Source of the DNA: Apibacter raozihei
GTDB lineage: Bacteria; Bacteroidota; Bacteroidia; Flavobacteriales; Weeksellaceae
NCBI RefSeq assembly: GCF_004014855.1
Contig: NZ_CP034930.1
Span: 2,647,716 to 2,711,715 of the forward strand
Direction: 5' to 3'
DNA: 64,000 bases
Shown: piece after piece, positions 2,465-16,500 of the stretch
How the letters are laid out: each line of letters begins with the position of its first letter
How positions within the stretch are numbered: position 1 is the first letter of the stretch
Position numbers and translations under genes: made by a program
Notes under the pieces: generated by a model
What the model saw: the letters and a program-made list of their open reading frames with translations, nothing else
Told to the model about the DNA's origin: nothing
Databases searched by the model: none

Positions 2465-5101
2465 TTATTTTACCCAATATTGTACTATTCTTCCTTCTCC
2501 ATTATTAAATTTGTGAGGTCGCCAGTTTGCCCAGCCAGCCATACAATAACTTTGTCCGCCAAAATCATCATTACTGTTTGAACAAGTACCGATATGATGA
2601 TTTACCTGCATTTCACTATTCATATATAAACCAAATAAATCATTAATATACCTCTTATCAAAAGAAACAGTTTGTCCATTGCTCGAAGTATAGGAAAGAG
2701 TACCCGTACCCGCAAGATTGACACCTCCGTAAAATCCGGTAAAAAAATATGCAAAACTATAAAATCCCGGAGGAGTAGCAGCAAATGGTATTCCGCCAAA
2801 TGTATAAACAGCATTTGATGCAGAAGCTTTTACAAGAGAATTTCCAAAAACTTTACCTTCTGATGTATATTCATCTGACACATAGTTTCCCGTTGCAGGA
2901 TTACCACCTCCAAAAATTTTTACATTCCAGTAATTATCTTTTCCCCATACATCATCTGAAGGCGCTACGGTTGTACTTTCTACAATTTCAGGTGTTAAGG
3001 TTCCTGTATTTTGATGTCCTTTTTCTTTAATTGTAAACCTGTACTGATTATTTATATTACCTATATTGTTAACCACAGCACTAGGTACAGAAAAAGCATA
3101 TTCATTGAAAACTCCTGTTTCAGTTTTTACCGGATTTCTTTGTCCCTGAGTTGCTATCGATTCTGCCTGTGTCCTTTCAACAACTAATATTTGCCTTTCA
3201 GATAAAGATTTTACTAATGTCCATCCTCCGCCTTTCATATCACAATAGGTTTTAAATTTATTATTACTGGTATCTCTTACCCAATAATATCCATTTTGAG
3301 AATCCGGATTTGCATCTAATATTTCCGTACAACGATTAGCCGGATCTGTAAACGATCCTTTAGAACTATCCACTTTTACATTTATTATTCCAGAACAATC
3401 AGGTGTAACATCGATTAAGTTGAAACTTATAATTCCGGTTGTATTACCTATAGTCCCTTGGGCATATAAACGAATAGTCAAAGTAGAAGAATCTACAGCC
3501 AGGCTTCCGGAAGAAAATTTAAATCCATTCTCAGTTGTTGTTTCCAAAACCAAGTCTCCTTGTCCTGTAATTGTAACCGGAATATCTATATAATGCTGAG
3601 TAGTTGAAAATTCAGTTTGTTTGGTAATATATTTACCCGGGCCATAAGTTATTGAACTACAATCAACATTAGTTATTTTTGCAGCATCTGATTTTACATG
3701 AATTCCTGGTAGAATACATCCAATTACAGTACTTATATCATTAAACCGGATATCCGTTATTGCATCTACGCTTGTATCCGGAGCAACTGTTTCATTATGA
3801 TTTATCGGTATTCCCTGTCCTTCTAATTTCACCTGATAAACTCCCGTTTGATCAAAATTTCCGGATTTGTAAAAATAATAACCATTGGAAGTTGATAATT
3901 TTATAGCATACCTTCCTATACTGGTAATATTAATTTTTACTGTATATGTAGCCTGCGTATTACCGTTTAAAGATTCTCCTTTAATAAGAGGAGTATCGAC
4001 TGCATTTGTAACTATACCTCCAGTGGGGGCATTACAATCAACTAATTCAAAATCGGCATTACCCGGATCTCCACAAAGAGACAACCAGTTTTTTGATTTT
4101 TCACTGTAGTATCTGAAACAACCGGTATCAGGATTATAAAAGACAAGTCCGTCTATGGTAACCGGTAATAAATTTTTAGTAATTTTTGGTAATAATACTC
4201 CTTTGTCATCAGAAGCTACTTCTAATTGTGCGCCTTCACTCATGCTGGAATTTTTTCCAATTTTCATAGTCCCGATTACATCTAAAGTAGCCGTAGGAGC
4301 AGAGGTGTTTATTCCTGTTCTTCCTCCATTGGCATCTGTAATGCTAAGTATTTCCGATAGATTTTTACCAACACTAAAAGACAGATAGCGGTTTCCGATT
4401 GCTGTTCCTGTAGATACGTCTCCAAAGTTTATTCGCGCTACTGATCCGCCATGTACGGATGAGATACTTTGTATATGTATACCAAAATTATCGGTACGAT
4501 TTCCATAAGAATATCCATCCTGACCAATATTTATCCCTAATGCATGATTTGTTTCTTTTTTTGTTCTGGATGCATTTAAAAATAAATTTCCTTCTACCTG
4601 TAATTTAGAAGTCGGATTAGTTGTACCTATACCTACTCTGTTATTTTGAGCATCTACTGAAAAAGTATTCCCGTTTACTGAAAAAGCATTAAGCGTGGTT
4701 CCTCCGGAAAAAGAAAGAGTCTTACTGCCCAAAGTTACAATACGATCTTCTGTAAGGCTTCCGTTATTGTTATAAATATTCGGGGTGGTTCTAACCCAGG
4801 CAGTTCCGTTGTGATAATAATAGCCTATAGCATTTATGTTAACAGCCGAACCCGTTTGTGCGCCAGTAGCTATACTATTAATATAAACCAAAGTCGAAGC
4901 AGGTACTGAAGACATACTTTGCGCTCTCTGCCTGTCTATTCTGGGTATCAATAATCCCTCTGTCTTTGTACTTGTTCCTGTACTATTTAAGGCTGCTATA
5001 TCTATAGTAGCTGCAGGTGTTTCCGTATTAATCCCTAGCTGAGAGTAACCTGAAATGCTTAAAAACAAGAATATTATTATAAATATGTACTTAGTAATCA
5101 T
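2465..5101 (-). CDS. Secreted surface protein with fibrinogen-like C-terminal domain
   Basis: The 878-residue product has a signal peptide (about 1-20). Its N-terminal third has short repeats of the GIGTTNPTSKLQVEG type, as in tail-fibre-like and adhesin-like Bacteroidota proteins. A middle part of beta-rich modules follows (about 340-640). The C-terminal region (about 640-878) contains the C-D-M-K-G-G-G-W-T-L-V block typical of fibrinogen-related domains, and paired cysteines near the end. No type IX sorting domain is evident. It probably acts outside the cell in carbohydrate or surface binding, but this is inferred from domain type only. Residues 1 to about 345 are nearly identical to the protein encoded immediately upstream (5130-6176). 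The gap between the two genes is 28 bases, so they are likely one operon. Confidence 0.7.
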   Translation of the reverse strand: MITKYIFIIIFLFLSISGYSQLGINTETPAATIDIAALNSTGTSTKTEGLLIPRIDRQRAQSMSSVPASTLVYINSIATGAQTGSAVNINAIGYYYHNGTAWVRTTPNIYNNNGSLTEDRIVTLGSKTLSFSGGTTLNAFSVNGNTFSVDAQNNRVGIGTTNPTSKLQVEGNLFLNASRTKKETNHALGINIGQDGYSYGNRTDNFGIHIQSISSVHGGSVARINFGDVSTGTAIGNRYLSFSVGKNLSEILSITDANGGRTGINTSAPTATLDVIGTMKIGKNSSMSEGAQLEVASDDKGVLLPKITKNLLPVTIDGLVFYNPDTGCFRYYSEKSKNWLSLCGDPGNADFELVDCNAPTGGIVTNAVDTPLIKGESLNGNTQATYTVKINITSIGRYAIKLSTSNGYYFYKSGNFDQTGVYQVKLEGQGIPINHNETVAPDTSVDAITDIRFNDISTVIGCILPGIHVKSDAAKITNVDCSSITYGPGKYITKQTEFSTTQHYIDIPVTITGQGDLVLETTTENGFKFSSGSLAVDSSTLTIRLYAQGTIGNTTGIISFNLIDVTPDCSGIINVKVDSSKGSFTDPANRCTEILDANPDSQNGYYWVRDTSNNKFKTYCDMKGGGWTLVKSLSERQILVVERTQAESIATQGQRNPVKTETGVFNEYAFSVPSAVVNNIGNINNQYRFTIKEKGHQNTGTLTPEIVESTTVAPSDDVWGKDNYWNVKIFGGGNPATGNYVSDEYTSEGKVFGNSLVKASASNAVYTFGGIPFAATPPGFYSFAYFFTGFYGGVNLAGTGTLSYTSSNGQTVSFDKRYINDLFGLYMNSEMQVNHHIGTCSNSNDDFGGQSYCMAGWANWRPHKFNNGEGRIVQYWVK

Positions 5102-5129
5102 GTTAAATTCTAAAAATTACATTAATTAT

Positions 5130-6176
5130 TTATAAGCTTCCACAAAGGGATAACCATTTTTTCGATTTTTCGCTGTAATATTGGAAACATCCATTATCGG
5201 TGTTGTAATATAAAAGTCCATCTACTGCTGTAGATAATGAATTTTTAGCTATTCTGGGTAATAAAATCCCTTTATCATTTGAAGAAATTTCAAGTTCTAC
5301 AGCAGAATTAATATCAGAAGTACCGACAGACTGTCCAATTCTAGCCGTCCCTATTACATCTAAAGTAGCCGTAGGAGCCGAGGTGTTTATTCCTGTTCTT
5401 CCTCCGTTGGCATCTGTAATGCTAAGTATTTCCGATAGATTTTTGCCAACACTAAAAGACAGATAGCGGTTTCCGATTGCTGTTCCTGTAGATACGTCTC
5501 CAAAGTTTATTCGCGCTACTGATCCGCCATGTACGGATGAGGTACTTTGTATATGTATACCAAAATTATCGGTACGGTTTCCGTAGGAATATCCATCCTG
5601 ACCGATATTTATTCCTAATGCGTTATTTGTGTCTTTTTTTGTTCTGGATGCATTTAAAAATAAACTTCCTTCTACCTGTAATTTAGAAGTCGGATTAGTT
5701 GTACCTATACCTACTCTGTTATTCTGAGCGTCCACTGAAAAAGTATTCCCGTTTACTGAAAAAGCATTAAGCGTGGTTCCTCCGGAAAAAGAAAGAGTCT
5801 TACTTCCCAAAGTTACAATACGATCTTCTGTAAGACTTCCGTTATTGTTATAAATGCTAGTATTGAGTTTTACCCAGGCAGCTCCGTTGTAATAATAATA
5901 GCCTATAGTGTTCATGGTAGCAGTTGAACCCGTTTGTGTGCCTGTAGCTATACTATTAATGTAAACCAATGTCGAAACAGGTACTGAAGACATACTTTGC
6001 GCTTTCTGCCTGTCTATTCTGGGAATCAACAATCCCTCTGTCTTTGTACTTGTTCCTGTACTATTTAAAGCTGCTATGTCTAAAGTAGCTGCAGGTGTTT
6101 CCGTATTTATTCCCACCTGGGAATAAAGAAAAGTAGTTGAAATAAAACTTACAATCTTAAAAGTATTCATCTTCAT
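5130..6176 (-). CDS. Short paralogue of the adjacent surface protein (N-terminal module only)
   Basis: The 348-residue product has an N-terminal signal-like segment followed by the same repeat-rich adhesin or fibre-like module as the first 345 residues of the downstream gene. It ends at the shared motif with W-L-S-L-C-G, where the longer paralogue continues into its beta-rich and fibrinogen-like parts. The two N-terminal coding stretches (about 4300-5085 and 5370-6155) are nearly identical at the DNA level, including third positions, so recent duplication or gene conversion is likely. Its function is unknown. It could be a partner that assembles with the longer protein. A TAnnTTTG element lies 125 bases upstream. 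Confidence 0.7.
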   Translation of the reverse strand: MKMNTFKIVSFISTTFLYSQVGINTETPAATLDIAALNSTGTSTKTEGLLIPRIDRQKAQSMSSVPVSTLVYINSIATGTQTGSTATMNTIGYYYYNGAAWVKLNTSIYNNNGSLTEDRIVTLGSKTLSFSGGTTLNAFSVNGNTFSVDAQNNRVGIGTTNPTSKLQVEGSLFLNASRTKKDTNNALGINIGQDGYSYGNRTDNFGIHIQSTSSVHGGSVARINFGDVSTGTAIGNRYLSFSVGKNLSEILSITDANGGRTGINTSAPTATLDVIGTARIGQSVGTSDINSAVELEISSNDKGILLPRIAKNSLSTAVDGLLYYNTDNGCFQYYSEKSKKWLSLCGSL

Positions 6177-6870: not shown

Positions 6871-8565
6871 ATGGGAAAGATTTTTACTTTTAATGCATTA
6901 ACAATTATTATGCTTATACTTAATTCCTGTTCTTCAGATGATACTTTAATTACATCTGATACTAACATTGAACAAGGAAAAGAAAGTGACTGGTTAAAGT
7001 ATTCTAACGCCGAAGGGTATCTAGTTACGTTTGATAATAATTCTGAAAAATTATACTTAATAAGTAATGATACAGGATTATTTTTAGAAGGAGATATTAA
7101 AATTAAAGAAGATATTATACAAACAAAAGCCGCTGGTATTCCATTTATAAAATCTAAAAAATGGGTGAGCAATAAAATATATTATACATTTGATATAAAT
7201 ATACCCATGTCAGGCAAATCAGCAATATTAAATGCTATAAGAATTATCGAAAGTCAGGTTCCGGTTAAATTTTATGAAAGAAAAACAGAGAACAATTACA
7301 TACACTTTTTCAAAGGTAATGGTAATTGGTCTTATGTAGGAATGACAGGTGGAAAACAATATTTATCATTATATAACGATACAAACTTAGGAATCATAAC
7401 TCATGAAATTGGTCATGCTCTAGGACTTTTTCATGAGCAGACCAGATTAGATAGAGATAAGTACATAACAATTCATTGGAATAATATAACTGAAAATAAT
7501 AAGCATAATTTTGAAAAACACTCGGGTGGAAAATATGGACTGGATTATGGAGTATTTGATTTTAATTCGGTAATGTTATATGGTTCATTTTCTTTTAGTA
7601 CGAATAACAAGCCAACCATTACAAAAAAAAATGGACAAACTTTTGAATCTAATAGACAAAGTTTTTCATCTGGAGATATAGAAGCTCTAAAAATGATTTA
7701 TCCGACATTACAACTATCTCAAAATCTTGATTACGATGGAGATGGTAAAGCAGATGTAGCTTATAAAACATCATCGGGCATTTGGTATATAGATTATGCA
7801 AAAAATGGCTTTGGCAGCTGGGATGTTAGTTATAGTGGGTATGGAAGCATTGCTGATATACCTTGCCCGGCTGATTATGATGGAGACGGTAAAGCAGATT
7901 TAGCTTTAAGAACACCATCGGGAGTTTGGTTGATAGATTATGCGAAAAATGGCTTTGGTAAATGGGATGTTAGTTATAGTGGGTATGGAAGCAGTGTTGA
8001 CATTCCTTATCCTGCCGATTATGATGGGGACGGTAAAGCAGATTTAGCTCTAAGAACGCCATCGGGGGTATGGTTGATAGATTATGCAAAAAATGGCTTT
8101 GGTAGATGGGATGTTAGTTATCGTGGATATGGCAGCAGTGTTGATATTCCTTGCCCTGCCGATTATGATGGAGATGGTAAAACCGATTTAGCTTTAAGAA
8201 CACCATCGGGAGTTTGGTTAATAGATTATGCAAAAAATGGCTTTGGTAAATGGGATGTTAATTATGGAGGGTACGGCAGTAGTGTTGATATCCCTTGTCC
8301 GGCTGATTATGATGGAGATGGTAAAGCAGATTTAGCTTTAAGAACACCATCGGGAGTTTGGTTGATAGATTATGCGAAAAATGGCTTTGGTAGATGGGAT
8401 GTTAGTTATAGTGGGTATGGAAGTAGTAATGATGTTTCTTGTCCTGCCGATTATGATGGTGATGGTAAAGCAGACTTAGCTTTAACTTCTTATGGAAAAT
8501 GGCATGTAGATTATGCAAGAAATGGTTTTGGTAGATGGGATTATTCATATGTATTGAAATACTAA
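6871..8565 (+). CDS. Astacin-family (M12A) metalloprotease lipoprotein with C-terminal repeats
   Basis: The 564-residue product begins with a lipoprotein signal ending in L-N-S-C followed by SSDD. A serine/acid cluster after the lipidated cysteine resembles Bacteroidota surface-export signals, so display on the cell surface is likely. The protease domain carries HEIGHALGLFHEQTR with zinc ligands H178, H182 and H188 and catalytic E179. It also has a Met-turn S-V-M-L-Y around M235. These are the astacin signatures, with Leu where His or Tyr is more usual before the Tyr. From residue 287 to the end run six copies of a 48-residue module starting DYDGDGKAD, a DxDxDG calcium-loop motif as in VCBS/FG-GAP-like repeats. 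The family includes flavastacin of related bacteria. The substrate is unknown. A terminator follows 35 bases downstream. Confidence 0.88.
   Translation: MGKIFTFNALTIIMLILNSCSSDDTLITSDTNIEQGKESDWLKYSNAEGYLVTFDNNSEKLYLISNDTGLFLEGDIKIKEDIIQTKAAGIPFIKSKKWVSNKIYYTFDINIPMSGKSAILNAIRIIESQVPVKFYERKTENNYIHFFKGNGNWSYVGMTGGKQYLSLYNDTNLGIITHEIGHALGLFHEQTRLDRDKYITIHWNNITENNKHNFEKHSGGKYGLDYGVFDFNSVMLYGSFSFSTNNKPTITKKNGQTFESNRQSFSSGDIEALKMIYPTLQLSQNLDYDGDGKADVAYKTSSGIWYIDYAKNGFGSWDVSYSGYGSIADIPCPADYDGDGKADLALRTPSGVWLIDYAKNGFGKWDVSYSGYGSSVDIPYPADYDGDGKADLALRTPSGVWLIDYAKNGFGRWDVSYRGYGSSVDIPCPADYDGDGKTDLALRTPSGVWLIDYAKNGFGKWDVNYGGYGSSVDIPCPADYDGDGKADLALRTPSGVWLIDYAKNGFGRWDVSYSGYGSSNDVSCPADYDGDGKADLALTSYGKWHVDYARNGFGRWDYSYVLKY
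7729..8565 (+). repeat. Six tandem 144-bp coding repeats (DYDGDGKAD modules)
   Basis: Units start at 7729, 7873, 8017, 8161, 8305 and 8449 with an exact 144-bp period, encoding 48-residue modules with DYDGDGK, GVWLIDYAKNGFG and GYGSS blocks. Central copies are nearly identical in DNA, so copy-number change by slippage or recombination is likely. The last copy is shortened. Confidence 0.95.
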
Positions 8566-8749: not shown

Positions 8750-9064
8750 CGGGTGTTAACCCAATCTTTAATGTAAAGACTGTAAATTTTTTAAACAAAC
8801 AGGTTTGGCCACGCGGCTATTTACACATAATGGCAAATTATAGGAAAACTTTGTAAAATGTGTTTGTCTCAGAAAAGTTTTATTTAGGCGAAGCCCGGAG
8901 CTTTTGCGCAGACATAATATAACATTATAGGAAAATGTGTAAATACTACCTTAATTTTGAAATATTTAATTATTCTATAATTTTCCTATAATTTCCTATA
9001 ATGTACTTGCATTATGTTACATAGCTTTGAGCTATTTATTTTTTAAAAGGGGAGGGAAAAAAAA
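8750..9064. repeat. Island repeat R, copy 1 (left boundary of the defence array)
   Basis: This non-coding stretch is closely similar to 12347-12710 and 16141-16448. Conserved parts include CGCGGCTATTTA, GGCAAATTATAGGAAAA, a long imperfect hairpin with outer arms TGTCT/AGACA and inner GGC-GAA-GCC, a second ATTATAGGAAAA, and a closing TTTTCCTATAA with TTATGTTACAT. Its left part lacks the first arm of the AATTTACAGC/GCTGTAAATT inverted repeat that copies 2 and 3 have, so it is truncated there. It ends with the palindrome ATAGCT-TTG-AGCTAT (9021-9035) and a purine-rich tract just before cargo 1. No protein is encoded. Confidence 0.85.
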
Positions 9065-9078
9065 ATTTATTTTGCAAT

Positions 9079-9903
9079 TTATTTTTTAAATTTAAAAATA
9101 TCATCAACAGGCATTGGGTTTGAAGAAAACTTTTCACCAATAGTAGTAGTTACATAAGCAGTTATTGTTACACCTTTGCCTATAAATTTTTCAAATTGTT
9201 TAAAAAAGCCTTCAACAAGTTTATATTTTATTTGATATTGTTCTCCATATTCCATCTTTATTGGAAATTCAATGTGATTTATAGATTCTACTAATTGAAA
9301 AGTATCAGCAGATCCTATCACAGGCTGGCTAATTGTAAAATAAGGAGCATGGAAATATCTATGCTCTTTAATAATATTTGTCACTGTTACTCCAATACAT
9401 ATTTCAGATATACCAAAACTATTAACTAATATATATATTGATAAATAAATATTGCTTTCAGAGATCTCTTTTTCTGGAATTGGAATATTGACCTCACTAC
9501 CAAGTTTTTTTAGAATTCTATCTGCCAGCTCTTCAGGTTGCATATTTTTAATATTAATAAAACCTATAGTAGATCTAAGGCCGTCTAATTCTGTATCATC
9601 AAATTTCACAGGTAAGATATATTCTTCCTTATTTTCAATTGATCTTGCTAATGCATTTCTAATTTCGAAATTTGTCCAAATTTTTTCTTTATAGAAAGAT
9701 GAAATAAATGGAATAAAATATTTTGATTGCCTTCTATATATGTAATCAAAATGAATTCCTAAATCTTTACCCCATAAATCTAATTCATCAAATTTATCGT
9801 AAAAGACAGATATTTTATTTTCCTTTAATATTAAAGCAACTTTTTCTACATATTCTCTATCTTCTCCGGCGAAAGATAAAGCAACTTGATATTTATATTC
9901 CAT
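9079..9903 (-). CDS. TIR-domain protein (cargo 1, third gene)
   Basis: The 274-residue product has an N-terminal TIR domain (about 1-140), recognised by YQVALSFAGEDREYVEKV, the FYDKFD and DLWG segments, and F-I-S-S-F-Y-K-E-K-I-W-T-N-F-E. E80 in the last segment is a plausible catalytic glutamate of NAD-consuming TIR enzymes. Residues from about 150 to the end form a beta-rich domain that I do not recognise and that could be a sensor or partner-binding part. It is the last gene of a three-gene unit behind the XRE regulator, starting 16 bases after the small membrane protein gene. The expected role is antiphage signalling or NAD depletion, based on family and neighbours. Enzymatic activity cannot be read from sequence. 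Confidence 0.75.
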   Translation of the reverse strand: MEYKYQVALSFAGEDREYVEKVALILKENKISVFYDKFDELDLWGKDLGIHFDYIYRRQSKYFIPFISSFYKEKIWTNFEIRNALARSIENKEEYILPVKFDDTELDGLRSTIGFINIKNMQPEELADRILKKLGSEVNIPIPEKEISESNIYLSIYILVNSFGISEICIGVTVTNIIKEHRYFHAPYFTISQPVIGSADTFQLVESINHIEFPIKMEYGEQYQIKYKLVEGFFKQFEKFIGKGVTITAYVTTTIGEKFSSNPMPVDDIFKFKK

Positions 9904-9919
9904 TATTTAATGTGTATTT

Positions 9920-10321
9920 TTAAATATAAAACATAATTAATAAACTTATGATTAATTGTGTACCATAAAAAAATATTAAGGTTTTTGATAAAAAACACTT
10001 GTAAAACATATTTTTATCTTTAGTAAATTCTGAAGTATTCATTGAAAAATCTATATTGTCATTATTTTGAATTAATCTAACTTTATCATATAAGCATCTG
10101 AATTTACGTTCTAATTGTAGAAAATATGCATTTAACATCCAAAAAATTAATAATGCAAAATAAGTTATTAGTATGTAATTTTTATTAGCATCTTTTGCCG
10201 CAAGAGCAAATAAAGCTGCTAACAAAGTAACACACCAACCTTTGACTATAAATGAATTTGTACTCATTCGAGTTATAGTATTCTGTATAAATTCCAGATG
10301 TTTAAGTTTTTTATCATTCAT
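9920..10321 (-). CDS. Small three-helix membrane protein (cargo 1, second gene)
   Basis: The 133-residue product has a charged N-terminal amphipathic stretch (HLEFIQNTITRMSTNSF) and hydrophobic helices near residues 25-43, 48-70 and 112-132. The second helix and a soluble loop of about 40 residues are joined by the LERKFRCLYDKVR segment. Its start codon overlaps the stop of the upstream TIR-like gene by 8 bases, a sign of translational coupling. Similar small membrane proteins next to TIR-like proteins occur in defence islands. The natural guess is a membrane-disrupting effector or anchor controlled by the neighbouring TIR proteins. I do not recognise a named family and give no symbol. Confidence 0.75.
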   Translation of the reverse strand: MNDKKLKHLEFIQNTITRMSTNSFIVKGWCVTLLAALFALAAKDANKNYILITYFALLIFWMLNAYFLQLERKFRCLYDKVRLIQNNDNIDFSMNTSEFTKDKNMFYKCFLSKTLIFFYGTQLIISLLIMFYI

Positions 10322-11135
10322 TTGAAAAAAATCTTTTATTTAGTGGATGTTGTGCGTATAAAGTGTCTAAAGCTTTTTCAGGATTACTAATGTTTTCTGA
10401 TGTTTTAAGCCAATTCAGTAGATCATGCGCATTTAGATTCATTAAATGTGAAAGCTCTACATTATAATCTATTAATAATTGTTGTTGATCACTTTCATTT
10501 AACATTTTCATTTGATTTGATGAAAATACTTTAACCTTTTGTTGTAAGCGTTTAGGCGTTTTCTTTTGTACAATTATTGAAGTGTTGATTTCTGAAAAAA
10601 TCCAAGGTGAATCAGTCTTATTATTAATTTCATTAGAAGTGGTGATAGAATTTGGAGTATTTAAAAACATAATACATTCGCAATTGTCAATCATTCTGTT
10701 TAAAGAGTTAGAAAGCATCATATGCACATGGGTTGTAGAATAATTTCTTTTTTCATAGTTATAATAACTATCACTATCTTTGCAATATCTATTATCAAAT
10801 TGTTTTAGTAAATTATCTGAATATCCCCAAACAGCTGAATCAATAAAAGTATAAATATTGAAAGCTTCATGAAAAAAACCTGCAAGAAGAAAAGCCCATT
10901 TTTCATCTTTATGAGAATGGGATAAAAAAATATGTGCTTTTACCTCAGGAAACCATTCACTAATAATTTTATCGCCATCTAGACGTTTATTATCTAATAA
11001 ATAATCGTCTAGAGTACTTTTTACTTTTGCTTTAGTATCATTAAAAATTTTCCCACCTATTTTAATGAGTTCATTTATAGTATTATCATTTATTTTTAGA
11101 TTAGATGGCATTGAAAGATTAAAACCCCTATACAT
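10314..11135 (-). CDS. TIR-like protein (cargo 1, first gene)
   Basis: The 273-residue product carries a TIR-like fold in its middle, starting at about residue 67 with A-H-I-F-L-S-H-S-H-K-D-E-K-W and continuing with a helix, an F-I-D-S strand and N-C-E-C-I-M-F-L-N-T. S-P-W-I-F-S-E follows, where E182 is the candidate catalytic glutamate. The N-terminal 60 residues are helical and the C-terminal 75 unassigned. The overall look is closer to ThsB/DUF1863-type TIR-like proteins than to the second TIR protein of this operon. It starts 18 bases after the XRE regulator stop, so the regulator and cargo form one transcript. Met at residue 9 is an alternative start. A role in phage sensing or signal-nucleotide production is inferred. 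Confidence 0.65.
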   Translation of the reverse strand: MYRGFNLSMPSNLKINDNTINELIKIGGKIFNDTKAKVKSTLDDYLLDNKRLDGDKIISEWFPEVKAHIFLSHSHKDEKWAFLLAGFFHEAFNIYTFIDSAVWGYSDNLLKQFDNRYCKDSDSYYNYEKRNYSTTHVHMMLSNSLNRMIDNCECIMFLNTPNSITTSNEINNKTDSPWIFSEINTSIIVQKKTPKRLQQKVKVFSSNQMKMLNESDQQQLLIDYNVELSHLMNLNAHDLLNWLKTSENISNPEKALDTLYAQHPLNKRFFSNE

Positions 11136-11153
11136 ATTAGCTGTATTATAAGT

Positions 11154-11567
11154 TTATTTCCCCTCAATCAACCTCTCCAACTTATCAATCATTTCTTTTT
11201 GTTGTTGAAGCATACGTTCGTAAAGTTCCACCATTTTATCAACAGGATTGAAGCTTGGTTGATAATTTAAAACTGCCGGATTTGTCATGGTGGCATTGTC
11301 ATTATTGTTTATTGTATTAGAAATGACATTTATAGCAAGCTCATCATCAAAATTTTTAATAGCTTCTGCAGGAACTTTTAAGATTTCCGCAATTTTCCCC
11401 AACACTTGATCATCTAATATTTCTTTAGATTCATAGTCAGATATGGAGGATTGGGAAACTCCCATATCAAAAGCCAACGCTTCCTGTTTTATTCCTAATA
11501 TTTCACGAAAACGTTTAATATTTCTGCCTTGGTGTATCTTTTTGGGTGTAGGGTTGTCTATAGTCAT
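11154..11567 (-). CDS. XRE-family regulator heading cargo 1
   Basis: The 137-residue product has an HTH_3 domain at about residues 14-67 (RFREILGIKQEALAFDMG, then VSQSSISDYESK), a linker, and a C-terminal helical tail that may form a coiled coil. A longer reading frame upstream of this ATG exists but overlaps the SymE-like gene and its promoter, and the second copy has a stop there, so I take the ATG at 11567. An 18-bp palindrome and TAnnTTTG elements lie directly upstream. Autorepression and repression of the cargo are therefore likely. The first 75 residues are almost identical to the 14959-15375 regulator, while the C-terminal parts diverge. Confidence 0.85.
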   Translation of the reverse strand: MTIDNPTPKKIHQGRNIKRFREILGIKQEALAFDMGVSQSSISDYESKEILDDQVLGKIAEILKVPAEAIKNFDDELAINVISNTINNNDNATMTNPAVLNYQPSFNPVDKMVELYERMLQQQKEMIDKLERLIEGK

Positions 11568-11571
11568 AAAG

Positions 11572-11603
11572 CAAATGTACAAATTTATCTTTGAGCTAAG
11601 ATA
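11572..11603 (-). promoter_or_regulatory. Promoter and operator of the cargo 1 regulator
   Basis: Two overlapping minus-strand matches to TAnnTTTG occur: TACATTTG at 11579-11572, only four bases before the ATG, and TAAATTTG at 11587-11580. They suggest a very short or leaderless mRNA. Abutting them at 11586-11603 is the palindrome TATCTT-TGAGCT-AAGATA, conserved in copy 2, a good candidate for the regulator's own binding site. Confidence 0.6.
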
Positions 11604-11721
11604 CAAAAAAATCAAATAAAATATGAGGTAAAAAATCAAAGATTTTTGGTAAAATATTAGCTTCCCAAATTGAGTATCGGGCAGGGTAGGGTTTCCTTTG
11701 CAGAAAGAAAAAATAAGTAAT

Positions 11722-11925
11722 ATGGAAGTTCGTAAATATAAAAGCAAAGCCAAAATACGCACTATAAAGGTATATGAAAGGGATTTTAAAAGAACCAGTT
11801 TCCGTTATGTTTCTTTTCCGGAAATACGTATGACAGGGAAATGGTTGCAGGATTCGGGTTTTAGAACCGGAGACCAGATATTAATCAAGCACAGTAAAAA
11901 ACGAATTGTGATTACTAAGGTTTGA
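11722..11925 (+). CDS. SymE-like toxin (unit 1)
   Basis: The 67-residue basic protein ends in a typical SymE-like core: S-F-P-E-I-R-M-T-G-K-W-L, a G-F-R-T-G-D turn, then I-L-I-K-H and R-I-V-I-T-K-V. SymE family proteins adopt an AbrB-like fold. The E. coli member is an SOS-induced toxin held in check by the antisense RNA SymR. Here the gene is divergent from an XRE regulator, and I see no LexA site or obvious antisense promoter. A TTG eight codons upstream could extend it, but the ATG is preferred. It is 63 of 67 residues identical to the unit 2 copy. Whether it is toxic is untested. Confidence 0.75.
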   Translation: MEVRKYKSKAKIRTIKVYERDFKRTSFRYVSFPEIRMTGKWLQDSGFRTGDQILIKHSKKRIVITKV

Positions 11926-12346
11926 ATAAAAATATTATGTTAAATAGGGAATAGTGAAAAGTGAATAAAAGAAAGGAGTTAATCAATTTTTATTAAAATT
12001 TTGAATTATTCTTTTGTCTTGGTACAAATGTTTTGCATTCTTGAACTCCTTAATAATTTATTAAAGCTGTGAAAAAAAGAAACAAAAATCAAGGCTGTAA
12101 GTGGATTTCAGCTTAAAAACTTCTTTAAAAAGCTGAAAGATTTTGAACTCACTAAGGCTCAAGGCATAAAATATTTTTAATATAGTTATTAATTTCATTC
12201 TTTTGTCTTGAAACAAAAGAATCAAAAATTCAAGAAAAATAAAAAACTCGCTTTCGCTCAAACATTTATTTTTCCTCATGTTTTCAAATTAAAAATATAA
12301 TAAAACACTTTAAAAGTCATTTAAAAAATAAAATTTCTTTTCTCAG
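11926..12346. repeat. Non-coding tail of unit 1, shared with unit 2
   Basis: This AT-rich tract follows symE and is homologous to 15734-16140. It begins with an element containing TTATGTTAAAT (11935-11945), the sequence of the XerD arm of dif. It also has a 26-bp hairpin at 12197-12222 (ATTCTTTTGT with its inverse), a TTTGTCTTG-TACAAATG block and repeated GCTGTGAAAAAAAGAA segments. The only sizeable frame, on the minus strand at 12061-12279, is low-complexity and I do not consider it a gene. Confidence 0.6.
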
Positions 12347-12710
12347 GTGTTGGCCAAAAAAATTAAACAGCACAGGCTGGCCGTGTGTGGGATTTGTTCA
12401 GAAAAATTTACAGCGTAATTTTTTATTGTAAAGGCTGTAAATTATTTAAACAAAACGGGTTGGCTGCGCGGCTATTTATACATAATGGCAAATTATAGGA
12501 AAACCCTGTAAAATGTGTTTGTCTCAGAAAAGTTTTATTTAGGCGAAGCCCGAAGCTTTTGCGTAGACATAATATAACATTATAGGAAAATGTGTAAATA
12601 CTGCCGTAATTTTGAAATGAATTATTTTCCTATAATGTTCTTGCATTATGTTACATAGCTTTGAGCTATTTAATTTTTAAAAGGGGAGAGGAAAAGAAAT
12701 TTTATTTACA
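12347..12710. repeat. Island repeat R, copy 2 (between the two cassettes)
   Basis: This is the full-length R copy. It starts TTGGCC, has inverted repeats AATTTACAGC (12407-12416) and GCTGTAAATT (12434-12443), then CGCGGCTATTTATA, CATAATGGCAAATTATAGG, the long hairpin around GGCGAAGCC (12542-12550), the second ATTATAGGAAAA, and a closing TTTTCCTATAA with TTATGTTACAT. The palindrome ATAGCT-TTG-AGCTAT is at 12655-12669. It is nearly identical to copies 1 and 3. Its position marks the end of unit 1 and the start of cargo 2. Confidence 0.85.
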
Positions 12711-12847
12711 TAAATCAGCTTAAATATATTGAACCATTAAATAAGCCCCGACTTTCTAAAATTACATTTCGTAATTGTTGTATGTCAATATTTTCTTAAT
12801 ATTTATTTAAATTTTCTTTCCAAAAGTTATGTTAATTAATATTTTAA

Positions 12848-13687
12848 TTATTTTAGATAAGTAATTGCTAAATTTAAATTTTTATATTCTTTTATTTTTT
12901 TTTCATCAAATGACATCCAAAAAACACTATCAATATTATCTTTTTCAAAGCCTATTTTCTTACATATAACTTCTAAAACTTTTATTAAATCTTTTCCATG
13001 TATAATGAATCTATAATCAATTTCCTCTGAACTTTTTATAAATTCATCTATTTCTTCAATCAAAAATTCTGGTTTAATTTTTAATTTTTCTGAATTTTGA
13101 ATTAATACTGCTATATATTTATTTTTGTCAATTTCTAACGTATTACCAACATATTTAATATATTTATTTAATTTTTCATTAGTATTATTGATTGATAAAT
13201 TTTTACCTTTTAATATAGAAAATTTTCGAACATATCCAAAATAAACAGATGAAATTAATAATTCAAATAAAGTAGTTGCATCTATTTTATTAGTTTTAAG
13301 CCCTATTTTTAAAAATTTATCTAAAAAAAATTGGTTCAATAGATATGATTCTAAATCTTTAAAATCTGTAATAATTATGTGTTTATTTATATTTGTTTCA
13401 TTTAAATCATAATCTCTATCAATAAAAAATTTAATATTCTCCATATCTGAAGGTACAATATTTGAAAAATGTAAAATCTTTCCTTTATTCCCCCCTTCAA
13501 CTGGATCCATTTCTATATTTTCAATTTCAATAATAATAGAGTTTTTATCTATTTTATCACATATAAACTCAAAAAAAAATCTATCTGTTATTCCCTCAAC
13601 AACCAAAAGCCTTCTTTCATTATCAAGTTCAAAAGACTTAATATGTGATTTTGGAGTTCGTTTTGGCCTTTCATTATAATCACTCAT
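12848..13687 (-). CDS. DUF4435 TOPRIM-like protein, AriB-like (cargo 2)
   Basis: The 279-residue product has a TOPRIM-like core: L-L-V-V-E-G-I-T-D-R with E31 and D35, F-F-I-D-R-D-Y-D with D90 and D92, and I-T-D-F-K-D-L-E-S-Y-L-L with D108, D111 and E113. This arrangement is that of DUF4435 proteins. When paired with an AAA ATPase as here, such a protein corresponds to AriB of the PARIS antiphage system, a nuclease released when phage anti-restriction proteins are sensed. In characterised PARIS it cleaves tRNA. The start overlaps the ATPase stop by 8 bases, so the two are coupled. The assignment to PARIS rests on gene pairing, size and motifs. A DUF4435 protein of another AAA system remains possible. 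Confidence 0.7.
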   Translation of the reverse strand: MSDYNERPKRTPKSHIKSFELDNERRLLVVEGITDRFFFEFICDKIDKNSIIIEIENIEMDPVEGGNKGKILHFSNIVPSDMENIKFFIDRDYDLNETNINKHIIITDFKDLESYLLNQFFLDKFLKIGLKTNKIDATTLFELLISSVYFGYVRKFSILKGKNLSINNTNEKLNKYIKYVGNTLEIDKNKYIAVLIQNSEKLKIKPEFLIEEIDEFIKSSEEIDYRFIIHGKDLIKVLEVICKKIGFEKDNIDSVFWMSFDEKKIKEYKNLNLAITYLK

Positions 13688-14924
13688 ATCTTTCGGTTAT
13701 AAGTGAATTAGGAAAGTTTTCGGCGATATCAGGAGAATGTGTTGCAAAAATCATTTGAGGAGAAGCATTACTAGCTATTGTTATTAATGAATTTACAAGT
13801 TTTCTTTGCCATGATATATGCATAGACATTTCAGGTTCATCAATTGCAATTACAGAACCTTTTACTTTAGTACATAATGCTAGTACTGTTAAATAAAGTA
13901 AATGATATTCCCCTGTACTTAATTCGTTTTCAGATATTTCATCTAACATTGAATTTAGAATATTTATTTTAAATCCATTTCCACTAATAGTAATCTTTTT
14001 ATCTGATAAATAATCATTTAATGTATTTTCAAAAACTAATAATCTGTTGGCCAAGCTTACTAATTCAAAGATTCGAGATTCATGTACATTAATGTAGGCA
14101 GAGATAATACTTAATTTTATTTGATTATTTTTAAAAGTTTCTATCTTATTTTTTAATTTTTTATAATCCCAATTTTCTCTATAAAGTTTTAATTGATTAA
14201 ACTTATATTGTTTTTCAATTTTTTCAAGTAAATTTAGCCTTTCTAATATTTTTTTATAGTCGAGTTCTATAACATTGTCAATATTGTCTAATATTTTATC
14301 AAATAAATCTGGTTCCTCAGTATGAAAATAATTAGAATAGTTTATTTGAGAATCTTTAATAAAATTTCGAATTTTATTATTTAAAAATGATTTATTTTGA
14401 AATTTTATTTTTTTTATTATTTCTTTATTTAGTTTTATTTTTTCACTTATAGATTCATCTTTAATATTTTTCTTTATAAGTCTTTCAGTATCTATAAATT
14501 CATAAGAAAATTTATCTAAATCCTTTCTATACTGTTCAGTAAAATTTTGTTTAGATAATATATTCTCAGGAGTATCTTCAAATTTATCATCTACATTTAA
14601 CTTAGCATTCAGTATTTTTTTATTTCCAGATCTATAAGTAACAAATAAATATTTTTGTTCCTCTAAAACTACTTTTTTAACAGTAATTCTATTAGAATTA
14701 GAGAATATTAGATGCGCATATTTAAATTTAGATTTTCTAAATTCATCAAAATCCAAAGTCATGAAACCATCAACCATTCTTAAAACTGTAGTTTTACCTA
14801 TACCATTTTTACCATAAATCATTATAACGTCTGCATTTGCACGTTCATGCTTATTAATGGTAAAATCAATTTTATGATTATATAAATCGAATAACCCCTC
14901 TATATAAAATTCCTTTATTTGCAT
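13680..14924 (-). CDS. AAA/ABC-type ATPase, AriA-like (cargo 2)
   Basis: The 414-residue product is an SMC/OLD-like ATPase. Walker A is G-K-N-G-I-G-K-T-T (about 38-46), and a long, lysine- and asparagine-rich helical insert spans about 130-290. The ABC signature is E-L-S-T-G-E-Y, Walker B with catalytic Glu is V-I-A-I-D-E-P-E (about 358-365), and the H-loop is F-A-T-H-S-P (H396). This is the AAA_15/AAA_21 type used in AriA of PARIS, where a multimer traps AriB until a trigger binds. The gene starts 34 bases after the XRE regulator stop and overlaps the DUF4435 gene by 8 bases. The region is more AT-rich than the flanking core genes, consistent with transfer. Confidence 0.72.
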   Translation of the reverse strand: MQIKEFYIEGLFDLYNHKIDFTINKHERANADVIMIYGKNGIGKTTVLRMVDGFMTLDFDEFRKSKFKYAHLIFSNSNRITVKKVVLEEQKYLFVTYRSGNKKILNAKLNVDDKFEDTPENILSKQNFTEQYRKDLDKFSYEFIDTERLIKKNIKDESISEKIKLNKEIIKKIKFQNKSFLNNKIRNFIKDSQINYSNYFHTEEPDLFDKILDNIDNVIELDYKKILERLNLLEKIEKQYKFNQLKLYRENWDYKKLKNKIETFKNNQIKLSIISAYINVHESRIFELVSLANRLLVFENTLNDYLSDKKITISGNGFKINILNSMLDEISENELSTGEYHLLYLTVLALCTKVKGSVIAIDEPEMSMHISWQRKLVNSLITIASNASPQMIFATHSPDIAENFPNSLITERYE

Positions 14925-14958
14925 ATAATTACATCGTTAAATTCTTTAGGCTCATTCA

Positions 14959-15375
14959 TCACTTTATCCTATCCAAAATATCCTTCATAAGTTGAGTTTT
15001 CTCTTTTTCGCTTTCTAACAAGCGTTCAAAAAGTTCCACTACTTTATCAAGAGGATTAAAGTTTGGTGAATTATTGATTATACTAGCGAATTGAGGGGTT
15101 GAATGGTCGTGATTGTTAAATGTATTTGCTATAACATTAATAGCTGAATCTTCATCAAAATTTTTAATTGCTTCTGCAGGAACTTTTAAGATTTCCGCAA
15201 TTTTTTCCAACACTTTATCATCAAGTGTTTCTTTAGATTCATAATCGGAAATGGAAGATTGGGAAACTCCCATATCAAAAGCCAAAGCTTCCTGTTTTAT
15301 ACCTAATATTTCACGAAAACGTTTAATATTTCTTCCCTGATGTATCTTTTTGGGTGTAGGGTTGTCTATAGTCAT
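14959..15375 (-). CDS. XRE-family regulator heading cargo 2
   Basis: The 138-residue product has the same HTH_3 domain (about 14-67) as the unit 1 regulator with only a few substitutions in the first 80 residues. It then diverges strongly in the asparagine-rich linker and the charged helical C-terminus. The conserved DNA-binding part and the conserved palindrome upstream suggest that both regulators can bind both operators. The divergent tail, which lies next to the cargo, may tune dimerisation or response. It leads the operon with the ATPase and DUF4435 genes. Confidence 0.85.
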   Translation of the reverse strand: MTIDNPTPKKIHQGRNIKRFREILGIKQEALAFDMGVSQSSISDYESKETLDDKVLEKIAEILKVPAEAIKNFDEDSAINVIANTFNNHDHSTPQFASIINNSPNFNPLDKVVELFERLLESEKEKTQLMKDILDRIK

Positions 15376-15379
15376 AAAG

Positions 15380-15411
15380 CAAATGTACTAATTTATCTTT
15401 GAGCTAAGATA
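15380..15411 (-). promoter_or_regulatory. Promoter and operator of the cargo 2 regulator
   Basis: The palindrome TATCTT-TGAGCT-AAGATA recurs exactly at 15394-15411. The TACATTTG -7 match close to the ATG is kept (minus strand, 15387-15380), but the second element seen in unit 1 reads TAAATTAG here, no longer a consensus match. Confidence 0.55.
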
Positions 15412-15529
15412 CAAAAAAATCAAATAAAATATAAGATAAATAATTAAATATTTTTGGTAAAATATCAGCATTCTAAATTGAATATCGGGCAGGGTAGGGC
15501 TTCCTTTGCAAAAAGAAAAAATCAGAAAT

Positions 15530-15733
15530 ATGGAAGTTAGTAAATATAAGAGTAAAGCTAAAATACGCACTATAAAGGTATATGAAAGAGATTTTAAAAG
15601 AACCAGTTTTCGTTATGTTTCTTTTCCGGAAATACGTATGGCAGGGAAATGGTTGCAGGATTCGGGTTTCAGAACCGGAGACCAAATACAAATCAAACAC
15701 ACCAAAAAACGAATTGTGATTACTAAGGTTTGA
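15530..15733 (+). CDS. SymE-like toxin (unit 2)
   Basis: The 67-residue product differs from the unit 1 copy at four positions (Ser4, Ala38, Gln54 and Thr58 replacing Arg, Thr, Leu and Ser). It keeps the S-F-P-E-I-R core and the R-I-V-I-T-K-V end. The upstream 90 bases, including an unusually G-rich stretch GGGCAGGGTAGGG just before the start region, are also conserved between units. Two nearly identical SymE-like genes 3.8 kb apart give direct homology for recombination across a whole cassette. Confidence 0.75.
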   Translation: MEVSKYKSKAKIRTIKVYERDFKRTSFRYVSFPEIRMAGKWLQDSGFRTGDQIQIKHTKKRIVITKV

Positions 15734-16140
15734 ATAAAAATATTATGTTAAATAGGGAATAGTGAAAAGTGAAGAAAAGAAAGGAGTTAATCAATTTTTA
15801 TTAAAATTTTGAATTATTCTTTTGTCTTGGTACAAATGCTTTGCATTCTTGAACTCCTTAAAAATTTATTAAAGCTGTGAAAAAAAGAATCAAAAATAAA
15901 GGCTGTAAGTGGATTTCAGCTTAAAAAACTTCTTTTCAAACATAAAATATTTTTAATATAGTTATTCATTTCATCATTCTTTTGTCTTGATACAAATGCT
16001 TTGCATTCTTGAACTCCATAAAATTTATTAAAGCTGTGAAAAAAAGAAACAAAAATTCAAGAAAAATAAAAACTCGCTATCGCTCAAACATTTATTTTTC
16101 GACATATCAATATCACATCAAAAAATAAAATTTCTTTTAT
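15734..16140. repeat. Non-coding tail of unit 2, shared with unit 1
   Basis: This is homologous to 11926-12346 with rearrangements. The TTTTGTCTTG-TACAAATGC-TTTGCATTCTTGAACTCC block and the following AAAGCTGTGAAAAAAAGAA stretch occur twice here (about 15818-15890 and 15979-16050). TTATGTTAAAT is again present just after symE (15743-15753). No gene is seen. Confidence 0.6.
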
Positions 16141-16448
16141 CAGGTGTTGGCCAAAAAATTAAACAGCACAGGCTGGCCGTGTGTGGGATTTGTTTAAAAA
16201 ATTTACAGCGTAATTTTATATTTTTAAAAGCTGTAAATTTTTTAGGCAAACCAGGTTAGCCGCGCGGCTATTTATACATAATGGCAAATTATAGGAAAAC
16301 CCTGTAAAATGTGTTTGTCTCAGAAAAGTTCTATTTAGGCGAAGCCCGGAGCTTTTGCGTAGACATAATATGACATTATAGGAAAATGTGTAATTACCGC
16401 CGTAAATTTGAAATATATAATTTTCCTATAATTTATATTATGTTAAAT
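16141..16448. repeat. Island repeat R, copy 3 (right boundary of the array)
   Basis: It is nearly identical to copy 2 from the TTGGCC start through the AATTTACAGC/GCTGTAAATT inverted repeat, the long hairpin and the two ATTATAGGAAAA motifs. It then departs from copies 1 and 2. Instead of TTATGTTACAT, the ATAGCT palindrome and the purine tract, it ends in a dif-like junction and passes into the flank of the next gene. Confidence 0.85.
16421..16448 (+). other. dif-like putative Xer recombination site
   Basis: The 28 bases read TTTTCCTATAA, a 6-base centre TTTATA, then TTATGTTAAAT. They match the E. coli dif sequence at 22 of 28 positions, including the entire 11-base XerD arm and ATAAT of the XerC side. 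Related pairs with 7- to 10-base centres occur inside the R copies. A functional Xer site is a hypothesis: in an AT-rich genome the XerD arm alone could occur by chance. Confidence 0.4.
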
Positions 16449-16500
16449 AGATAATTTGAATTTCTATCTCTCTACGTATATTATAAGACAACTTCTTACA

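Follow-up and report, generated by a model that had tools for sequence, protein, structure and literature searches.

Two consecutive gene units in a 64,000-nucleotide stretch of the Apibacter raozihei chromosome (hereafter the window) share a flanking repeat (R), an XRE regulator, a divergent SymE-like gene and a non-coding tail, and carry different genes, referred to here as cargo, behind the regulator. The array begins exactly at the chromosomal dif site, with copies of R at the unit edges; the same XRE-SymE pair, which we call the chassis, stands at or near dif in three genera; and the content of the cargo slot differs between Chryseobacterium species. On balance we think it probable that this is a tandem array of small defense cassettes anchored at dif, with entry presumably by Xer recombination. 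A more far-reaching possibility, put forward tentatively, is a dif-based cassette system in which host Xer, acting through a CTXphi-like region, stacks defense operons at the replication terminus, each behind an interchangeable XRE-SymE module. It would amount to an integron-like immunity library lacking its own integrase, with dif left usable for the next unit and a single near-dif slot surviving in related genera.

The array in the window and its outer edge

Read on the minus strand, the order is R3, tail, SymE2/XRE2, AriA-like ATPase, AriB-like protein, R2, tail, SymE1/XRE1, TIR protein, membrane protein, TIR protein, R1 (Table 1); that is, each unit reads R, tail, SymE/XRE and cargo, and is followed by the next R. 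An earlier note made from the sequence alone had described two consecutive units with this shared order, and its account of them holds up. We obtained the same count of 63 identical residues among 67 for the two SymE products, from their shared ATG. The regulators, said to be nearly identical over their DNA-binding halves, agree at 76 of 83 aligned positions in the first 84 residues and at just 24 of 50 beyond residue 84. A repeat search of the window returned the three near-identical R copies as direct repeats (starts 8767, 12422 and 16218), copies 2 and 3 being 90% and 86% identical to copy 1 over the 219 bp compared, and the tails are also repeated. The cargoes of unit 1 (A) and unit 2 (B), which the note called unrelated, gave no blastp match to each other better than E = 0.027. 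The right edge that it assigned to the array (16448) falls within one base of the end of dif (16449), but dif itself had gone unrecognized.

All the tests we ran point to chromosomal dif as the array's outer edge, an identification from sequence, copy number and skew, not from function. The arms of the array-edge motif match the E. coli dif site. The 24-base motif (up to two mismatches) is present in 302 of 316 family genomes, mostly as a single copy; two matches occur in 7 genomes, and the reversed control gave one match in 8 genomes. GC skew in the window genome (G000) is positive in 9 of 10 sampled 20-kb stretches between 1.155 and 2.62 Mb and negative in 8 of 11 sampled stretches outside that interval, with switches close to dif (2.664 Mb) and to its antipode (1.018 Mb). 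The 6-bp center of the motif fits the description of dif in an excerpted review. The sequence CTATTTAACATAATATWAATTATAGG directly precedes R or chassis material in eight loci from two genera (one with a single mismatch), and the DNA on the other side of dif looks unrelated in those loci. Five of the eight have an intact SymE-XRE pair (the window; G008, an uncultured Apibacter of the same genus; L098, L141 and L161), and the remaining three (G004, G002 and G001) hold remnants or R only. Two properties of integrative mobile elements exploiting Xer (IMEX) are found here: the element edge coincides with chromosomal dif, and an intact dif on one side is matched by an altered site on the other (edges of G008 and G004; leading and trailing sites of the window). 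The array, in our reading, lies where it does because dif is there.

A search for a dif-like pattern (CATAA-N4-11-TTATAGG) found nine sites in the window, dif counted, every one of them inside R; 60 shuffles of the window gave a mean of 0.3 and a maximum of 2. Each R contains one forward site (M1; dif itself in R3) and two inverted ones (M2 and M3). The inner arm TTATAGG is perfect and the outer arm degenerate, the centers measure 10 bp in M1 and 7 bp in M2 and M3, and the gaps between sites are 34 and 121 bp. Folded singly, the minus strand of R pairs M1 with M2 (z = -2.2; 5 of 200 shuffles as good), and the plus strand scores z = -1.8 (12 of 200 as good). Elizabethkingia copies of R retain the three-site pattern despite different intervening DNA, and R with this pattern adjoins the chassis in two of three Elizabethkingia loci. 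In excerpted accounts, CTXphi has a pair of inverted sites separated by 90 bp, with centers of 12 bp (attP1) and 5–7 bp (attP2); they pair in the single strand, and the exchange is set by the bases beside the XerC arm. R shares with it the inverted dif-like sites, one stretched center and the single-strand pairing, whereas site number and spacing differ. The inner and trailing R sites diverge from dif left of ATTATA, differences of the kind that a CTXphi-type exchange would leave. Rather than plain flanking homology, R is more aptly seen as an attachment region that carries dif-like sites, as IMEX also do.

Among the loci examined, R occurs as a strong match only in Apibacter and Elizabethkingia. 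A decayed fourth copy lies outside the window (G000:C1:2636864), 27 kb from dif and upstream of a hydrolase gene; the same hydrolase gene adjoins the G008 array and the G004 and G002 remnants. A short R-like match in a further genus (g2; G010:C22:147098-147133) lies some 2.2 kb from the one dif match in its genome (G010:C22:144930) and hints at remnants there. Other identities for R were considered. No Rfam family came near threshold (there were two sub-threshold leader matches), an integron site was set aside because no integron integrase was found, and transposon ends were rejected because the array edges are direct rather than inverted.

Table 1. Features of the array in the window (positions in the window; strand +, - or. 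for none).
Feature	Position	Strand	Evidence
Chromosomal dif site, outer (leading) array edge, TATTTAACATAATATAAATTATAGGAAAA	16421..16449	-	motif, copy number, GC skew
R copy 3, contains dif	16206..16463	-	nhmmer R profile, E 2.1e-68
R copy 2, between units	12411..12712	-	nhmmer E 2.7e-86; repeat families D2/D5
R copy 1, trailing end	8761..9088	-	nhmmer E 7.3e-82; repeat families D2/D5
dif-like site M1 of R2, 10-bp center	12625..12657	-	pattern search
dif-like site M1 of R1, 10-bp center	8991..9023	-	pattern search
Inverted dif-like site M2 of R3	16357..16386	+	pattern search
Inverted dif-like site M2 of R2	12561..12590	+	pattern search
Inverted dif-like site M2 of R1	8906..8935	+	pattern search
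Inverted dif-like site M3 of R3	16270..16299	+	pattern search
Inverted dif-like site M3 of R2	12474..12503	+	pattern search
Inverted dif-like site M3 of R1	8819..8848	+	pattern search
Unit 2 non-coding tail	15734..16205	.	repeat families D4, D6, D8-D10, D13, D15
Unit 2 SymE-like gene, shared ATG at 15530	15506..15733	+	Pfam PF08845 44.3 bits
Unit 2 divergent promoter region; inverted repeat TATCTT-TGAGCT-AAGATA at 15394-15411	15376..15529	.	
Unit 2 XRE regulator	14959..15375	-	Pfam HTH_3 E 1.5e-12
Cargo B AriA-like ATPase (PARIS-like)	13680..14924	-	PDB AriA chains E 7.6e-15; PADLOC AriA E 1.1e-21
Cargo B AriB-like DUF4435/TOPRIM-like protein	12848..13687	-	PADLOC AriB E 3.8e-13
Unit 1 non-coding tail	11926..12410	.	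repeat families D4, D6, D8-D10, D13, D15
Unit 1 SymE-like gene, shared ATG at 11722	11698..11925	+	Pfam PF08845 41.9 bits
Unit 1 divergent promoter region; inverted repeat TATCTT-TGAGCT-AAGATA at 11586-11603	11571..11721	.	
Unit 1 XRE regulator	11154..11570	-	Pfam HTH_3 E 1.9e-11
Cargo A ThsB-like TIR protein	10314..11135	-	PADLOC ThsB E 1.8e-78
Cargo A small protein, putative membrane protein (earlier reading and PADLOC neighbors)	9920..10321	-	PADLOC PDC-M50A E 1.2e-50; Pfam DUF2270 below cut-off
Cargo A TIR protein	9079..9903	-	Pfam TIR_2 E 3.5e-14

Judged from sequence, the cargoes of the window are of a ThsB-like TIR and a PARIS-like type. The cargo A TIR protein resembles Thoeris in matching ThsB models, and differs in that no ThsA match was found among the cargo A proteins scanned. 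Cargo B pairs an ATPase that matches AriA in the PDB with a partner that matches AriB, the combination of PARIS at the level of sequence; the AriB match is moderate in PADLOC and has no PDB counterpart. The SymE domain shared with the SymE/SymR type I toxin-antitoxin is present (above the Pfam cut-off of 29 bits), and the NCBIfam SymE equivalog model scored 31.9 bits against a cut-off of 132. The regulators matched helix-turn-helix and repressor models only (Pfam, E 0.01), with no WYL domain of the BrxR type among them. XRE promoters are strongly conserved ahead of differing cargo; the inverted repeat present in the Apibacter ones might, as a guess, be an operator.

The chassis and its cargo in related genomes

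A scan of named genomes for the regulator returned 80 loci, 31 of which hold 33 divergent SymE-XRE pairs. In the DNA examined around them, dif lies in 26 of the 31 loci with a divergent SymE and in 0 of the 49 without one, of which 17 are from Flavobacterium or other families, where dif may differ, and 9 spanned less than 17 kb. Within the family alone the counts are 26 of 29 and 0 of 32. On the count of 0 of 49 we set aside XRE loci without a divergent SymE as members of the same system.

The earlier note had proposed that the chassis would recur with many different defense genes in related genomes, and this is borne out, the cargoes being mostly defense genes. The same chassis with other cargo occurs in another Apibacter, in Elizabethkingia, where R and chassis are again found at dif, in Flavobacterium, and at one site in 43 genomes of Chryseobacterium, which like Apibacter belongs to the Weeksellaceae. 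The outcome that would have told against the idea, an arrangement confined to the window or always with the same cargo, is contradicted by these occurrences. A variable number of units was also foreseen, and is seen between Apibacter species (two in the window, three in G008, remnants in G004 and G002), a comparison of species rather than of the strains the note had in mind. In G008 the first of the three tandem units has a broken XRE and, as cargo, a run of near-identical Imm26-like genes (L028:10466-12877); the other cargo comprises a membrane-like gene without a PADLOC match and a PDC-S42 defense candidate. The G004 remnant consists of R with pieces of SymE and XRE, and the G002 remnant of R and, beyond two resident genes, a broken XRE. 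Flavobacterium L118 encodes a TIR protein 81% identical to that of the window, its third gene being a Roc-COR-TIR protein; other cargo outside Chryseobacterium includes Shedu (L161), DzbA/DzbB (L131) and PDC-M38A with HerA (Elizabethkingia L098/L099).

For Chryseobacterium (genus g5, taken as such; one genome per species) we examined 60 SymE loci, 24 of which overlap with the named-genome set. A divergent pair is present in 46; after removal of L229 and L245 (a different helix-turn-helix gene) and L228 (contig ends), 43 slots remained, all at one site with an ArsR-type gene downstream. Cargo occupies 38 of them and 5 are empty, where a resident gene of 703–704 amino acids was excluded from cargo (hence L223 counts as empty) and frames below 60 amino acids were ignored. 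The cargo amounts to 72 proteins in 48 families. Sorted so that no protein is shared between types (blastp E 1e-5), the 38 occupied slots give 23 types, of which the largest has 5 members. The pair lies 1690–12702 bp from dif, on a constant side and with a constant XRE sense, in 36 of 36 genomes, these being the genomes with pair and dif on one contig among the dif matches listed (to about G156); for G052 and G110, with two motif matches, the one with an intact core was taken as dif. In 14 further genomes SymE is far from dif: 8 have no matching XRE, 1 has a different helix-turn-helix gene, and the other five are G063, G064, G053, G081 and G118 (among the open reading frames listed).

The boundaries of the slot are where an exchange between conserved flanks, as the earlier note envisaged, should place them. 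Among 23 named loci, a block of DNA homology spans the XRE start in 251 of 253 pairs, and the shared flank ends at a median of 6 bp before the XRE stop (range -163 to +93; 251 of 253 pairs, blocks extending more than 400 bp past XRE excluded). Homology resumes about 45–70 bp before the ArsR start, or before the intervening resident 703-amino-acid gene. In 37 of 38 slots the first cargo gene shares the strand of XRE; its median start is 49.5 bp past the XRE stop. Different defense genes thus lie between conserved flanks, as in a defense hotspot, in a comparison between species. The conserved stretch ahead of the ArsR gene was considered as a recombination site and rejected, as by eye it resembles that gene's own promoter plus repeats. 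Mean flank identity is 89.1% for 24 same-cargo pairs vs. 88.3% for 796 other pairs (empty slots included) at ArsR, and 76.1% vs. 76.0% at 1.5–3 kb beyond it. In the pair L201/L220 a cargo protein is 96% identical, with DNA identities of 88% at ArsR and 69% at 1.5–3 kb beyond; in L195/L215 the cargo is 97% identical, with 90% at ArsR and 85% beyond. Some cargoes are therefore closer than their own flanks, which fits transfer into the slot, although most same-cargo pairs are not as close as these two.

At a threshold of 1e-5, PADLOC models matched 15 of the 22 cargo types scanned from Chryseobacterium (16 of 27 proteins; one or two proteins per type, L224 not among the 22), compared with 2 of 20 random genes, both subtilases, in a control drawn from the Apibacter genome rather than from Chryseobacterium. 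By best PADLOC or Pfam match, the types include Gabija GajA (L216, 1.8e-228), KAP PDC-S20 (L205, 5e-173), PDC-M37 (L189, 2e-154), a CAP12-type TIR PDC-S35 (L209, 1.5e-84), nSTAND3 PDC-S73 (L201, 1.5e-72), a PtuA-type ATPase (L196, 4e-61), PDC-S39 (L193, 3e-43), OLD (L213, 2e-26), AbiH (L195, Pfam 5e-26), an HNH nuclease (L200, 1e-22), HerA with NurA (L192), Ppl (L221), Schlafen AlbA (L188 and L207) and a GHKL-ATPase protein with a weak restriction match (L194, 2e-7).

The XRE linker between the DNA-binding half and the tail falls into a limited set of discrete types common to several genera (L106-L230, Apibacter). In 7 Apibacter XREs the linker is 80–96% identical to its best match from another genus vs. 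61–76% for the DNA-binding half. Cargo-specific XRE tails were considered and rejected: linker types agree in 5 of 24 same-cargo and 81 of 606 different-cargo pairs (permutation p = 0.21; two of the 43 slots, with a broken XRE, were left out of XRE comparisons). Separately, a second SymE class without this XRE (L087-L097, L229 and L245) is clustered with several small helix-turn-helix genes, far from dif where measured and near groEL in some genomes; L088 and L090 also have a recombinase-like gene, as judged by eye. A second SymE-XRE pair in G008 (L107; G008:C3:56865-57625) lies about 38 kb from the array, with the next gene on the opposite strand.

Proposed mechanism and alternatives

One tyrosine recombinase (PF00589) was found in the whole window genome (G000:C1:68836-69321), about 0.7 Mb from dif if the record is circular. 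It best matches XerC. The nine unit proteins scanned include no integrase, as in IMEX, and the genome's recombinase scored 82 bits against the integron-integrase cut-off of 265. As this recombinase is the sole one found and the array has none, host Xer suggests itself as the candidate enzyme for insertion at dif. A single recombinase was found where both XerC and XerD might be expected.

In the mechanism we propose, a unit would consist of R as attachment region with its three dif-like sites, the SymE-like gene, the divergent XRE gene and a swappable defense operon behind it. Host Xer recombination would bring units in at dif, as proposed by analogy with CTXphi and RS1. After each insertion dif would be intact on the outer side, with altered dif-like sites within, and for that reason successive units would all point the same way. 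One old chassis would stay near dif in Chryseobacterium, its cargo being replaced by homologous recombination between the XRE gene and the next resident gene. XRE would set the expression of whichever cargo follows, and SymE may act as a co-regulated DNA-binding or toxic partner and may stabilize the locus.

Several observations weigh against this. At the site itself, the 36 kb just left of dif has near-zero skew (-0.002, -0.012), such that the switch is not sharp. The sites of R number three at gaps of 34 and 121 bp, vs. two sites 90 bp apart in CTXphi, and M1 has a 10-bp center, so that duplex M1 should recombine poorly. The recombinase is below the model cut-offs for both XerC (264 of 335 bits) and XerD (230 of 330). 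Neither excision nor insertion nor a circular form was seen, and the dif flanks of 30 loci and the hydrolase loci yielded no clear-cut empty site; the scanned unit proteins include no replication or packaging gene by which units might travel. Five of the 31 SymE-XRE loci have no dif in the DNA examined: L107 (the second pair in G008), L118 and L131 (Flavobacterium), L120 (dif about 200 bp beyond that DNA) and L127 (dif not among the matches listed). Seven of the 22 scanned cargo types have no defense-model match (L186, L190, L191, L203, L206, L214 and L225). The Chryseobacterium slot is kilobases from dif, where Xer is not needed, and as the species share one ancestral site, the slot and dif counts cannot be taken as independent. 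The Chryseobacterium loci examined gave no match to R, which limits to Apibacter and Elizabethkingia the earlier note's idea of R as a conserved flank.

The last points would suit a defense hotspot at the terminus without cassette insertion, an alternative that we find unlikely but worth weighing. Here an old resident XRE-SymE would have its operons exchanged by ordinary homologous recombination, the Apibacter tandem would come from unequal crossing over between chassis copies, the dif-like sites of R would be old phage leftovers, and the dif region would simply tolerate foreign DNA. Slots that differ between Chryseobacterium species without any R match are as it would have them, as is the dif-proximal position in 36 of 36 genomes, and the tandem chassis repeats of the window could recombine with each other. 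By itself, however, it explains neither why R retains its three-site pattern in both Apibacter and Elizabethkingia despite differing spacers nor why R or chassis follows directly after dif in eight loci.

The resemblance of R to the CTXphi layout raises another origin, a domesticated and decayed family of single-stranded DNA phages or satellites (RS1-like), in which XRE would derive from a phage repressor and R from an attachment region, with defense genes replacing phage genes. Bacteroidota single-stranded DNA phages, Flavobacterium included, are inferred in print to use dif-type sites. XRE weakly matches the RstR repressor model (E 9.3e-5; 22.7 bits vs. a cut-off of 80) and has sub-cut-off matches to a phage CI repressor model, but such matches below cut-off are common for generic helix-turn-helix proteins. 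A Pfam scan of the nine unit proteins found no phage replication or capsid family, in which the units also differ from CTXphi and RS1, and viral contigs yielded neither an XRE relative (12 candidate stretches, 0 confirmed) nor an exact match to one R motif. We regard this origin as very improbable. Plasmids yielded two distant XREs, from Parabacteroides.

The window has just two units, which a single segmental duplication could explain if the copies later diverged and had genes replaced, without any underlying system. The finding of the arrangement with different cargo in G008, Elizabethkingia, Flavobacterium and the 43 Chryseobacterium slots leaves this reading next to no credence.

Comparison with known systems

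Our preferred reading, of defense cassettes at dif with Xer entry, is nearest to IMEX and CTXphi, which in the cited excerpts share with the array the edge at dif, dif-like sites in the element, an intact dif opposite an altered site, no integrase of their own and, for CTXphi, tandem units (PMC5357621, PMC4246890, PMC9765430). The present units differ in being about 4 kb long, with no phage or conjugation genes seen and with defense operons behind a common XRE-SymE, and their dependence on Xer is presumed. Acinetobacter pdif modules are likewise small gene modules bounded by Xer-type sites; as excerpted (PMC7399989), theirs carry resistance, whereas the present units have their sites at chromosomal dif and mostly defense genes as cargo. 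The Pseudomonas aeruginosa core defense hotspots cDHS1 and cDHS2 hold variable defense genes at fixed sites, and SymE is common in cDHS1, where it was proposed as an addiction module; the excerpts describe no common XRE ahead of the cargo and no link to dif, and the lineage is unrelated (PMC10250203).

Regulators encoded with diverse immune operons (BrxR, CapK/CapS) or with restriction-modification loci (RptR) are also on record in the excerpted literature (PMC9122601, PMC13373217, PMC12255303). Those are, respectively, a WYL protein, a kinase with a STAS-like partner and a small repressor, whereas the array regulator is an XRE whose linker varies and whose tail is predicted, by eye, to be coiled, and its partner is SymE, at or near dif. 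Integrons resemble the array in their cassette arrays, and SymE is a common cassette in Xanthomonas integrons (PMC12444791, excerpt); here, in contrast, there is no integron integrase, the sites are dif-like, and each unit has its own promoter and regulator. SymE in defense loci, shared defense regulators and IMEX are each known separately. No published description of the arrangement was recognized among the top-ranked full-text literature matches, which scarcely cover preprints.

How defense genes are gathered and exchanged is an open question, on which the array bears by pointing to an exact location (dif), to Xer as a candidate recombinase, to R as a candidate attachment site and to a shared control module. 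If our reading is true, genes behind a near-dif XRE would be a search route to new defense systems, the seven unmatched types being candidates, and Xer-exploiting elements would be extended from phages, islands and resistance modules to immunity.

Elsewhere in the window, a gene that adjoins the array (6871-8565) encodes a protein with 144-bp tandem repeats, and positions 2465-6176 hold two adjacent paralogous genes with 84% identity across 329 residues.

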